Shown here: positions 14,455-34,999 of the stretch, piece by piece
Position numbering within the stretch: the stretch's first letter is position 1
How the letters are laid out: every line of letters begins with the position of its first letter
DNA from: Hoyosella altamirensis
GTDB lineage: Bacteria; Actinomycetota; Actinomycetes; Mycobacteriales; Mycobacteriaceae
Assembly: GCF_014191505.1 (NCBI RefSeq)
Contig: NZ_JACHWS010000001.1
Coordinates: 744,001 to 808,000, forward strand
DNA: 64,000 nt
Reading direction: 5' to 3'
Program-made: the position numbers and the translations under genes
Notes under the pieces: generated by a model
What the model saw: the letters and a program-made list of their open reading frames with translations, nothing else
What the model was told of the DNA's origin: nothing
The model's database searches: none

Positions 14455-14672
14455 GCCGATGCCGTGCGGGAGAGTCCCATCCTCAAGTGATGGGCGCCGA
14501 AGGAGCAACACCTCTCCGACAATCTCTCAGGCACAAGGACCGTACGTGCTGCGGCGCCTCTGGAAAGTGGTGGTGAGCCACCCGCCCACGGGGAAAAGCC
14601 CAGCGAGACATCCAGTCGTCGCCGCCGAATCTCTCAGGCGCCCATTGTGGCAGCGACAGAGGGGGAGGACCG
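14455..14672 (+). promoter_or_regulatory. Tandem glycine riboswitch upstream of gcvB
   Basis: Two aptamers in series. The first (about 14463-14543) has GCGGGAGAG, GCCGAAGGAGCAA and AATCTCTCAGGCACAAGGAC. The second (about 14557-14667) starts CTCTGGAAAG, carries AATCTCTCAGGCGC (14628-14641) and closes with GACAGAGGGGG. These are the conserved elements of glycine aptamers. A TAGACT -10 hexamer (14441-14446) sits just upstream. gcvB starts 57 bases after it, so glycine should turn on its own breakdown enzyme. The second aptamer has a long, unusual internal arm. Confidence 0.95.
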
Positions 14673-29380: not shown

Positions 29381-29782
29381 TCAGCGGTCGCGCCTGCGGC
29401 CGCGCGGAGCATCGTCACGAAGGTCGAGTGAGGCTAGTGCGTCGCGCAAGGCGGCGGCTTCGCTGGGGTCGACCCGCTCGACGAAGTGCACCAGCGCGGC
29501 AGCCCGCCCGCCCGACTCCTCTGCCTGTTTGAGCGCGTCGACCATGAGTTCTGCGACGAGTTCCTCACGGGCGTTCACGGGCGTGTAGCGATAGGCACGC
29601 TCCCCACGCTCCTGGGCGACGAGCTTCTTTTTCGCGAGCCGCTGCAGCACCGTCATCACCGTGGTGTACGCGAGGGTGCGGTGCTCAGAAAGGGCCTCGT
29701 GCACCTGGCGCACGGTCTGCGGTTCGGGCGCGGACCAGAGATGGTCCATCACCGCCCGCTCGAGTTCTCCTAGACCTGCCAT
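29381..29782 (-). CDS. blaI: BlaI/MecI/CopY family repressor
   Basis: 133-residue winged-helix repressor. The recognition region includes MDHLWSAPEPQTVRQVHEAL and LAYTTVMTVLQRLAKKKLV, and the C-terminal dimer helix ends ALVHFVERVDPSEAAALRDAL. I chose ATG 29782, immediately after AGGAGA and matching Mtb Rv1846c; an upstream in-frame start would add 19 unrelated residues. In Mtb this regulator controls the M56 gene, ATP synthase and other targets. Likely autoregulated through the site at 29817-29835. Confidence 0.95.
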   Translation of the reverse strand: MAGLGELERAVMDHLWSAPEPQTVRQVHEALSEHRTLAYTTVMTVLQRLAKKKLVAQERGERAYRYTPVNAREELVAELMVDALKQAEESGGRAAALVHFVERVDPSEAAALRDALASLDLRDDAPRGRRRDR

Positions 29783-29816
29783 TTCTCCTATTCTACGGAG
29801 TCTTCGACACATGTGC

Positions 29817-29835
29817 GTACTACGGGTAGTCGTAG
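29817..29835. promoter_or_regulatory. Candidate BlaI operator
   Basis: GTACTACGGGTAGTCGTAG contains the perfect inverted repeat ACTAC-GG-GTAGT (29819-29830) and flanking TAC/GTA halves, resembling the TAC...GTA-type operators of BlaI/MecI. It lies 35 bases before the blaI start codon and between blaI and the end of the siderophore operon. Confidence 0.5.
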
Positions 29836-29843
29836 CCACCCTT

Positions 29844-33276: not shown

Positions 33277-33295
33277 TTAGGTTACGCGAACCTAA
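33277..33295 (-). promoter_or_regulatory. IdeR/DtxR iron box controlling the siderophore operon
   Basis: TTAGGTTACGCGAACCTAA matches the IdeR consensus (TTAGGTTAGGCTAACCTAA) at 16 of 19 positions, and its arms TTAGGTT/AACCTAA are perfect. It lies seven bases before the GTG of the RDD-FecCD gene and covers the likely -10 region, so iron-loaded IdeR should block transcription. Confidence 0.92.
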
Positions 33296-33368: not shown

Positions 33369-33387
33369 TAAGTGTAGGCTTACCTGA
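33369..33387 (+). promoter_or_regulatory. Weaker IdeR-like box before the divergent gene
   Basis: TAAGTGTAGGCTTACCTGA agrees with the IdeR consensus at 14 of 19 positions, best in the right half (TAGGCTtACCT). It sits 27 bases before ATG 33414. Probably makes the divergent gene iron-repressed too. Confidence 0.6.
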
Positions 33388-33413
33388 ACTTGACGATGGA
33401 TAAGGTGGTGTCA

Positions 33414-34232
33414 ATGGGTGGCGCAGCGCGTGCCAGCAGGGAAGTTGGGGATCGGGGCATCGCCCCCTTAGTGCTGAATCATCAGGATCTACAGGCAGAC
33501 CTGTGCATCCCGTTGCTTGCCAGCGCCGACCGGATGCGCGCGCTGGATCCCGAGTATCCACGCATCTACGCAGTTGCCTGGATGGCTCGTGAGCCTCGCC
33601 GCCGCTGGTGGCCGCTCGCGGCCGCGCTCTCCGAGGATCGCCTAGAGCAGATGCACTCCCGGATGGTGAGGGATCTCGGCAAACCCGGCCTCGCTTCCGC
33701 TCAGGTCGCAAATGTCGTGATTCACGCCGTGGTGAGTCGCGTGATGGCACTCATCGCTCTGGAAGGCCGCGCCTGGGACCCCGGGATCGACAACTTGTGG
33801 CTCCACTACGACTCGGATGGTGGGGTCGACTGGGCAGGTGTGGTTGACCCGGCCTTGCGTGTGCTGCACGGCGATCCGGTTGCGCGGGCGAGGCGTGCAG
33901 TGGAGATGCCGTGCGAGGAAGCATTGGTGGTGTGGGCGGCACACCGTTGTGAGACGACATTGGTGCCGTTGTTCGCGCGAATCTCCGAATTCACCGGGGT
34001 TGATAGGGACCGCCTGTGGTCGATGGTCGGGGAGGCGGTGATCGGGACGGCAACGTACGCGCCGCAGCTTGCTGGGTGCGACGATGCCGCATCGCTGCGG
34101 CGCGGACGCGGTTTCCTCGATGCACTCGCACGGTCAGGATTGCCTGTGCGCAGCCACGCTTCCCACGTCCGGTTGCGGTGGCGCGGAACGGATCCGGGTC
34201 CTGCACTGCCCGCTATTCCCGCATCAGCATGA
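33414..34232 (+). CDS. Iron-regulated protein of unknown function beside siderophore transporter
   Basis: 272 residues, soluble. I chose ATG 33414, preceded by AAGGTGG; TTG 33390 and ATG 33396 are possible. The position, divergent from a siderophore importer behind an IdeR-like box, suggests a FhuF-like siderophore-iron reductase. The body (WDPGIDNLWLHYDSDGGVDW, EALVVWAAHRCETTLVPLFAR) fits the loose pattern of such proteins. It lacks the C-terminal Cys-Cys...Cys-x2-Cys iron-sulfur motif of true FhuF, so either the reductase is degenerate or the function differs (siderophore handling, for instance). Confidence 0.7.
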   Translation: MGGAARASREVGDRGIAPLVLNHQDLQADLCIPLLASADRMRALDPEYPRIYAVAWMAREPRRRWWPLAAALSEDRLEQMHSRMVRDLGKPGLASAQVANVVIHAVVSRVMALIALEGRAWDPGIDNLWLHYDSDGGVDWAGVVDPALRVLHGDPVARARRAVEMPCEEALVVWAAHRCETTLVPLFARISEFTGVDRDRLWSMVGEAVIGTATYAPQLAGCDDAASLRRGRGFLDALARSGLPVRSHASHVRLRWRGTDPGPALPAIPASA

Positions 34233-34277
34233 TTGTGATGGCAATCACATCTGAGATTCAAGGTAAAGCGTTGAAAA

Positions 34278-34296
34278 TTAGGTGAGCCTCACCTAT
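34278..34296 (+). promoter_or_regulatory. IdeR iron box of the MrsI-like RNA
   Basis: TTAGGTGAGCCTCACCTAT matches the IdeR consensus at 15 of 19 positions and contains the perfect inverted repeat AGGTGAG-C-CTCACCT. A -10-like TATTCT (34294-34299) overlaps its end. No gene with a plausible start follows for 230 bases, which points to an RNA product. Confidence 0.88.
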
Positions 34297-34304
34297 TCTT
34301 ATGG

Positions 34305-34431
34305 CAGAAGGTTCCGCTGGAGCCGACGACAGGCCAATACAGGACCGAGTGGTGTACTGAGGGCTGCAGTTACACCCGGTCCATGCCACGGTGGGCCCTG
34401 TGCGGACTCACGCGCAGGGCCCACCTCCTTG
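34305..34431 (+). ncRNA. mrsI: Probable iron-responsive small RNA (MrsI-like)
   Basis: In mycobacteria the IdeR-repressed small RNA MrsI (ncRv11846) lies between Rv1846c (blaI) and Rv1847 and represses iron-using proteins during starvation. Here the same slot, just before the Rv1847-like thioesterase, holds an IdeR box, a TATTCT -10, about 125 bases without a convincing gene, then a strong hairpin with a pyrimidine/T-rich tail. The 5' end near 34305-34307 is estimated from the -10. The identity rests on position, promoter and terminator; I have not compared the sequence with mycobacterial MrsI. Confidence 0.75.
34390..34425 (+). terminator. Terminator of the MrsI-like RNA
   Basis: GGTGGGCCCTGTGCG (34390-34404) pairs with CGCGCAGGGCCCACC (34411-34425): 15 pairs with one mismatch, a six-base loop, then CTCCTTGTCTT. 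Strong intrinsic terminator about 100 bases after the predicted start. Confidence 0.85.
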
Positions 34432-34531
34432 TCTTCACCCGGTTTTCGTGTGGTTTGTGACAGGATGCGTCCTAGGGTGGTCCCGTGACCGGCACCCAGA
34501 CACATGACGCCATCTCGACAAGGGAGGCCTG

Positions 34532-34999
34532 ATGACCCCATCTGGCGAGGAAATAACGGAAACTGCCGTAACGGACCCAGAGTTCTACGAGCGCCTTGAG
34601 GAGGTGCTCGGCCGCGGGATGGGCGAGTACCTTGGTCTCCGCTTCACAGAGATCACCCCCGACTCTGTGCGCGCGCACTGGCGGATCCGTCCTGATATGC
34701 ATCAGCCAGCAGGGCTGGTCCATGGTGGCGTGTATTGCGCTGTTGTCGAAACAGTTGCGAGTCTCGCGGGAAGTGCATGGCTGGGCGACCGCGGTCACGT
34801 CGTCGGCGTTAACAACAACACCGACTTCCTTCGAGCTGTCCGTGAGGGCACTCTGCATGCACATGCGATTCCGATGCATCGCGGACGCCTGCAGCAATTG
34901 TGGCTCGTGAATATCACTGACGATCAGCACAAATTGATAGCACGTGGCCACGTGCGCCTGCAGAACGTCACCGACGCCGCTCGGCTAGGGGCGAGCTGA
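34532..34999 (+). CDS. PaaI-type hotdog thioesterase (Rv1847-like)
   Basis: 155 residues of the PaaI/hotdog fold, which hydrolyses acyl-CoA thioesters. The signature is HQPAGLVHGGVYCAVVETVASLAG, with the catalytic region Gly-Gly and Glu, followed by GVNNNTDFLRAVREGTLHAHA. ATG 34532 follows GGGAGGCCTG. Orthologous in position to Mtb Rv1847. Substrate unknown. Confidence 0.92.
   Translation: MTPSGEEITETAVTDPEFYERLEEVLGRGMGEYLGLRFTEITPDSVRAHWRIRPDMHQPAGLVHGGVYCAVVETVASLAGSAWLGDRGHVVGVNNNTDFLRAVREGTLHAHAIPMHRGRLQQLWLVNITDDQHKLIARGHVRLQNVTDAARLGAS

Follow-up and report, generated by a model that had tools for sequence, protein, structure and literature searches.

Features of the locus

We analyzed a stretch of 64,000 nucleotides (nt) from Hoyosella altamirensis (assembly GCF_014191505.1, contig NZ_JACHWS010000001.1, positions 744,001 to 808,000 of the forward strand), which as a whole is called the window below. 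An earlier reading of its letters, referred to here as the original prediction, had placed in it an IdeR-controlled small RNA at the position held in M. tuberculosis by the iron-sparing RNA MrsI (ncRv11846). The order in the window is the BlaI gene, a FecCD operon, a FhuF-like gene, the predicted RNA and a thioesterase gene (Table 1).

The near-consensus IdeR box claimed for this place was found. It reads TTAGGTGAGCCTCACCTAT and agrees at 16 of 19 positions with the consensus TTAGGTTAGSCTAACCTAA, and it has the expected AGGTGAG-C-CTCACCT symmetry. Allowing up to three mismatches, we obtained two IdeR box matches in the window, against a mean of 0.00 in 100 dinucleotide shuffles. The box overlaps the -10 hexamer TATTCT, which was likewise present, as part of a predicted promoter. 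This promoter was the sole match in the 1.7 kb scanned; since shuffles yielded 0.4, the match is weak on its own. We predict that transcription would start at about 34306. The intrinsic terminator expected ahead of the Rv1847-like gene corresponds to a stem of 15 pairs, 12 of them G-C, followed by TCCTTGTCTT. The terminator scan returned two sites, the second being the palindromic IdeR box itself, against 0.9 in shuffles, and taken alone it is weak support.

Table 1. Coordinates of the features discussed, numbered from the first letter of the window
Feature	Position	Strand	Basis or remark
Predicted sigma-70-like promoter, TTGAAA-17-TATTCT	34271..34299	+	promoter scan, 9/12
IdeR/DtxR-type box over the -10 hexamer	34278..34296	+	consensus match and occurrence in relatives
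Predicted small RNA, MrsI family, about 128 nt	34306..34434	+	covariance models R1 and R2
Core hairpin: outer stem GGACCG/CGGTCC, inner stem GGTGTA-CTG / CAG-T-TACACC	34342..34382	+	covariation and fold
Apical loop of 7 nt, AGGGCTG, predicted seed (GGGCTG pairs with CAGCCC)	34360..34366	+	conservation, matches in target leaders
Intrinsic terminator stem	34390..34425	+	terminator scan and covariation
Hotdog thioesterase (4HBT), Rv1847-like, downstream neighbour	34532..34999	+
FhuF-like protein, upstream neighbour	33390..34232	+	weak PF06276 match
Second IdeR-type box, between FecCD operon and FhuF-like gene	33277..33295	.	17/19
BlaI-type repressor, Rv1846c-like	29423..29839	-	82% identical to Lolliginicoccus BlaI

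Relatives of the RNA

When 298 genomes of the order were searched at the DNA level, 29 gave a match. In 28 the match was the core CTGAGGGCTGCAG; upstream of it, at a distance of 30-60 nt, there was a box (14-16 of 19), and alongside a thioesterase relative, which in all 28 core-bearing loci lay within 1.5 kb of the RNA. The remaining match, L017, had an IdeR box without the core and was rejected as a family copy. From the 28 core-bearing copies we built covariance model R1. Run on the GTDB family, it had matches at E ≤ 0.001 in 313 of 401 genomes, 15 of them weaker than 1e-5. The covariance search thus found the RNA at E < 1e-5 in 298 of the 401 genomes and in 21 of 31 genera. The claim that the system extends outside Mycobacterium therefore holds, and was too cautious. 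Among 296 genomes of the class, R1 matches outside the family reached only 29-38 bits, in 16 genomes; the three that we inspected (L197-L199) had no loop motif with an upstream box and no thioesterase match.

A pattern scan of a collection with named organisms gave at least 117 stretches. They came from the mycobacterial genera Mycobacterium, Mycolicibacterium, Mycobacteroides and Mycolicibacillus, from Rhodococcus, Rhodococcoides, Prescottella, Gordonia, Williamsia, Tsukamurella, Aldersonia, Millisia and Lolliginicoccus, and from one actinomycete bin. Five stretches in unrelated organisms (L075, L128, L131, L147, L149; box at most 10 of 19, no thioesterase) were dropped. Among the 112 remaining listed stretches 110 had a box of at least 13; the other two (L119, L134) are cut just before the core. 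A thioesterase relative lay within 1.5 kb at 100 of the 117 loci among the matches listed; the other 17 were the five unrelated organisms, nine loci near a locus end and three true exceptions (L071, L106, L154). Homology of the window RNA to the copies in named mycobacteria is clear; the M. tuberculosis locus was not among the matches of the named scan or of our searches of genus g2, which by inference is Mycobacterium. Searching the literature for the letters of the core turned up one unrelated paper.

All 147 scorable unique relatives had a box scoring 13-17 of 19 no more than 110 nt upstream of the core; in random windows from the relatives' loci such a box turned up in 53 of 2758. Between box and core there are 60 nt in the window and 36-39 nt in 72 of the 147 relatives, so the window RNA has a longer 5' part.

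Fold and conserved loop

The fold of 34304-34434 had a free energy of -70.7 kcal/mol (z = -4.9), and none of 200 shuffles was equally good. R1 matched the window RNA at E = 1.5e-17 and model R2 matched 34332-34391 at 72.7 bits, the window itself being among the training sequences of both. Scanning 34260-34450 with 4227 Rfam models gave no match at E up to 1.

Over 35 diverse copies, 89.7% of the cells of the core hairpin were paired, against at most 50% in slid versions, and seven pairs were altered on both sides (27 cells vs 6.4 in shuffles). Next to the loop-closing pair, on the side away from the loop AGGGCUG, 31 of the 35 copies have U-A, two have A-U and two have C-G. The A-U form of this apical pair also occurred in 5 of 101 matching genus g2 genomes (search with up to two mismatches). 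The minimum-energy fold gave a 7-nt loop in 142 of 148 unique copies, a set that excludes L047 (outer stem off pattern), five edge-near loci and duplicates. Constancy of the loop is partly by construction, because most copies were collected with patterns containing it. In 11 family loci picked from model matches, which impose no loop, AGGGCTG was present in 11 of 11 (one of these loci, L195, is the same place as L012). The terminator stem also covaries across the 28 copies; L012 is without its 5' arm.

Two copies depart from the usual layout. L012/L195 (genome G160) retains box, core and neighbours though the 5' arm of its terminator is lost. L194 (G172) is apparently a decaying copy, with an interrupted box, an unclear terminator and intact core hairpin letters.

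Complementary sites in bfrA, acn and leuC leaders

As given in excerpts of PMC11188477, bfrA is a target of MrsI. We collected 59 bfrA leaders, 30 from loci of the family sample and 29 from genus g2. In 33 of the 59, CAGCCC, which complements the GGGCUG of the loop, lay no more than 60 nt from the bfrA start, and it was the commonest hexamer there, ahead of Shine-Dalgarno words. It occurred in 128 of 5507 windows from the same loci (2.3%), and at -180 to -120 in 0 of 59. In the family sample the site was present in 12 of 24 leaders with MrsI vs 0 of 6 that lacked a strong match (p = 0.03 by a Fisher test that takes no account of relatedness). Out of 38 bfrA sites 25 fell into a hairpin loop, vs 7.4 expected.

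Aconitase (acn) genes were located by tblastn within the GTDB family. Leaders were obtained from 39 of 41 sampled genomes (all but G313 and G323), with one acn-type gene each and two in G307. Of 26 genomes bearing MrsI, 24 had CAGCCC 22-60 nt ahead of the acn start; of 14 leaders from 13 genomes without detectable MrsI, 3 had it there (p = 1e-5, again by a Fisher test blind to relatedness). The reversed and the complementary hexamer gave 0 of 26 each, and control windows 58 of 2302. At 26 of 27 sites the hexamer was placed in a hairpin loop, where shuffled flanks would lead one to expect 6.1; when the flanks were lengthened it was 25 of 27. The acn leader hairpin covaries (89.3% paired, 25 double-change cells vs 7.4) in alignment A3, which includes 26 of the 27 leaders with the site (L395 was omitted for being nearly the same as L393) and for which the loop letters were a selection rule. 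In the acn leader of the window's genome the site is at -41, with six of six bases in the hairpin loop of the predicted fold.

The leuC leaders were those of the best 30 loci of the same search, one of them without the motif. CAGCCC was found at -49 in the window's genome, at -46 in its congener and at -51 in what is by inference Lolliginicoccus; within -22 to -60 it was present in 6 of 29 leaders. The products of acn and leuC, aconitase and isopropylmalate isomerase, carry iron-sulfur clusters. In leuC leaders of the window's genus (L386, L370) CAGCCC is flanked by GGACCGG and CCGG, near to the letters of the outer stem, and contact with the RNA could spread there.

We also screened the window's own genome with the 8-mer CAGCCCTC, which had 198 sites vs 140 for the reversed control. 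Among 96 distinct sites examined (100 of the 198 were listed) four lay at a plausible start by a rough rule, and none at an obvious iron gene. The 8-mer is too strict, because the genome's own acn and leuC sites read CAGCCCA. Its ferritin and dps leaders had no 7-mer site; its dps-like gene (L183) has CAGCCC at +4, in the start region.

The original prediction had suggested checking for pairing with messages for iron storage and iron-sulfur proteins. In the window's genome the acn and leuC leaders have the complementary site, and bfrA does not.

Genomic neighbourhood

The proposed MrsI position, between Rv1846c and Rv1847, was recovered in an extended form: the thioesterase gene adjoins the RNA, and the BlaI gene lies beyond the inserted FecCD and FhuF-like genes. 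The window locus is the MrsI position, enlarged by genes for iron uptake. M. attenuatum (L153) and M. angelicum (L111) have a BlaI (Penicillinase_R) gene on one side of the RNA and an Rv1847-like thioesterase gene on the other, with no insert; in the other Mycobacterium loci inspected, L073 and L167, our rough open reading frame filter listed no BlaI. The nearest named relative is Lolliginicoccus (Hoyosellaceae in the NCBI taxonomy), whose thioesterase is 83% identical, whose BlaI protein matches Pfam PF03965 and where a FhuF-like gene sits between BlaI and the RNA. The FhuF-like protein of the window matched PF06276 at E = 0.0011 with 19.9 bits, under the cut-off of 25.2, and relatives of it were present at 19 of the 29 loci of the order-wide DNA search, the window's own counted.

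Further IdeR-like boxes lie upstream, the second box of Table 1 and one at 33369-33387 (14/19), both in the gap that separates the FecCD operon and the FhuF-like gene. In mononucleotide shuffles scores of at least 13 arise about three times per strand, so the box at 33369 is weak evidence alone. Together the two suggest divergent iron-controlled promoters. Elsewhere in the window, the Rfam scan gave a glycine riboswitch aptamer at 14457-14552 (65.4 bits).

Comparison with known systems

Excerpts of the reviews PMC8628891, PMC11188477 and PMC12101431 place M. tuberculosis MrsI at 2096766-2096867, in the blaI/Rv1847 interval, give it 100-106 nt, and attribute to it an IdeR site and a predicted terminator, as well as an apical loop of 7 nt and a seed of six nucleotides. 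By these published descriptions, through which M. tuberculosis MrsI was compared, the window RNA resembles MrsI of M. tuberculosis and M. smegmatis: it has an IdeR-type box at the promoter, an intrinsic terminator and a 7-nt apical loop, it is structured (about 100 nt there, a predicted 128 nt here), and it sits between BlaI and Rv1847-like genes. GGGCUG of its loop complements the commonest hexamer of bfrA leaders and has the length given for the published seed. It differs from MrsI in its longer 5' part, in the FecCD and FhuF-like genes that separate BlaI from the RNA, and in that the seed site of its genome is in the acn and leuC leaders and absent from bfrA. The predicted features match the descriptions, and the original prediction of an IdeR-controlled RNA of the MrsI type is supported.

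IsrR of Staphylococcus, RyhB of enterics, PrrF of Pseudomonas and FsrA of Bacillus are iron-repressed RNAs that lower iron-using enzymes, as stated in excerpts of PMC9410917, and RyhB acts on aconitase (PMC7308464). The window RNA differs in the contact predicted for it, in which its G-rich hairpin loop pairs with a hairpin loop rich in C. In Corynebacterium, according to the title of a reference in PMC1382209, aconitase is repressed via the DtxR-controlled protein RipA. RipA of Corynebacterium glutamicum resembles the predicted RNA in being DtxR-controlled, but is an AraC-type protein rather than an RNA. In two genomes of genus g7, taken for Corynebacterium, no MrsI was found and the acn leader was without CAGCCC.

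Alternative explanations

The frequent thioesterase neighbour would fit a 5' untranslated region that belongs to the thioesterase gene, is attenuated and under IdeR control, and gives no free RNA. We regard such a cis leader as improbable. The predicted terminator stem precedes the thioesterase gene and is itself under covariation, L012 aside; the three true exceptions, with room on both sides, keep box and core with no thioesterase match; and the distance from core to thioesterase match spans 73 to 1147 nt. In addition, the loop is complementary to leaders of unlinked iron genes, and according to the review excerpts MrsI of mycobacteria is an RNA in its own right, about 100 nt long. Less probable still is that the interval serves as mRNA for a small protein under IdeR control. 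In the window two of the three forward frames stay open over 34305-34440, but the distance from box to core runs from 24 to 69 nt in all three phases, and conservation sits in the loop and stems, where changes preserve base pairs.

Another explanation concerns the acn site, whose hairpin might be an independent cis element, for example one bound by a protein, with the match to the RNA loop coincidental or secondary. Its stem is conserved by covariation, it is present in three genomes without detectable MrsI, and by eye G312 keeps a hairpin-like stretch with a different loop. The same hexamer is, however, enriched and placed in loops in the unrelated leader of bfrA, a published MrsI target, and it is absent at that position in 11 of the 14 acn leaders without detectable MrsI, with the caveat that two of these (G302, G324) have CAGCCC further upstream, at -67 and -69. 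We find the independent element unlikely, though less so than the cis leader. The three acn leaders with the CAGCCC hairpin and no detectable MrsI (L420, L422, L423) may reflect an RNA that has diverged, or else an older element.

An MrsI-family RNA with a silencing loop has to be weighed against several observations. Six genus g2 genomes (G971, G1217, G123, G148, G195, G226), chosen because earlier searches gave no match in them, had no R2 match and at most 31 bits with R1; they seem to be a lineage that lost the RNA. In the window's genus no bfrA leader (0 of 3) had CAGCCC between -100 and +60 relative to the start, and it was missing from 8 of the 29 further genus g2 bfrA leaders, 21 of which have it. 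Among MrsI-bearing genomes two of 26 deviate at acn, G312 having no site and G321 reading CAGCCT, and conversely G308 (66% complete), G320 and G317 carry the acn hairpin and site without detectable MrsI. At leuC, 23 of 29 leaders were without CAGCCC, and the site of the window's genome is partly paired in the predicted fold. Genomes in the two Fisher tests are moreover related to each other. Since bfrA has no seed site in the window's genus, the targets of the RNA are predicted to differ there (acn, leuC); the missing bfrA site would be a target difference between lineages and no defining feature of the RNA itself.

Discussion

We consider it probable, by a good margin of confidence, that the predicted RNA is an iron-repressed small RNA of the MrsI family, the loop of which silences iron-rich targets by a kissing contact. 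From the box, promoter, hairpins with their covariation, synteny, distribution, and enrichment and loop placement of target sites, all present in the sequences, we infer transcription, iron control, the kissing contact and the direction of its effect. Iron-loaded IdeR would cover the -10 region and repress the gene. When iron drops, the RNA would be transcribed up to the terminator, and its core hairpin would present the loop AGGGCUG. Messages for iron proteins (acn and leuC here, bfrA in many relatives) would expose CAGCCC ahead of the start, in most cases where a hairpin of the leader forms its loop. A contact of six pairs between the two loops may then lower translation or stability of the target, sparing iron. 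Recognition by kissing loops is predicted because the loop complement is enriched in bfrA and acn leaders, mostly inside hairpin loops.

The kind of RNA that MrsI represents is known. What appears new here is the enrichment of CAGCCC and its loop placement in bfrA and acn leaders. The excerpts of literature searched (including PMC8600241, PMC7308464, PMC6689984, PMC9410917 and PMC7029489) mention no MrsI outside mycobacteria, no acn as an MrsI target and no kissing by MrsI; the original MrsI paper (Gerrick 2018) may contain some of this.

A wider reading seems to us evenly balanced: MrsI would be ancient and would spare iron across the whole mycobacterial family, acting by loop-loop kissing with aconitase as its core conserved target, while corynebacteria use RipA instead. 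Most lineages without MrsI are also without the aconitase hairpin, and a division of labour between RNA and protein is plausible because Corynebacterium represses aconitase through RipA.

The family-wide distribution yields a covariance model, and natural compensatory changes mark the seed loop. Aconitase is predicted as the most conserved target, and the kissing mechanism is testable in fast-growing relatives. In summary, these results suggest that the sparing of iron in the citrate cycle may fall to an RNA across much of the family, and that corynebacteria use a protein for it.
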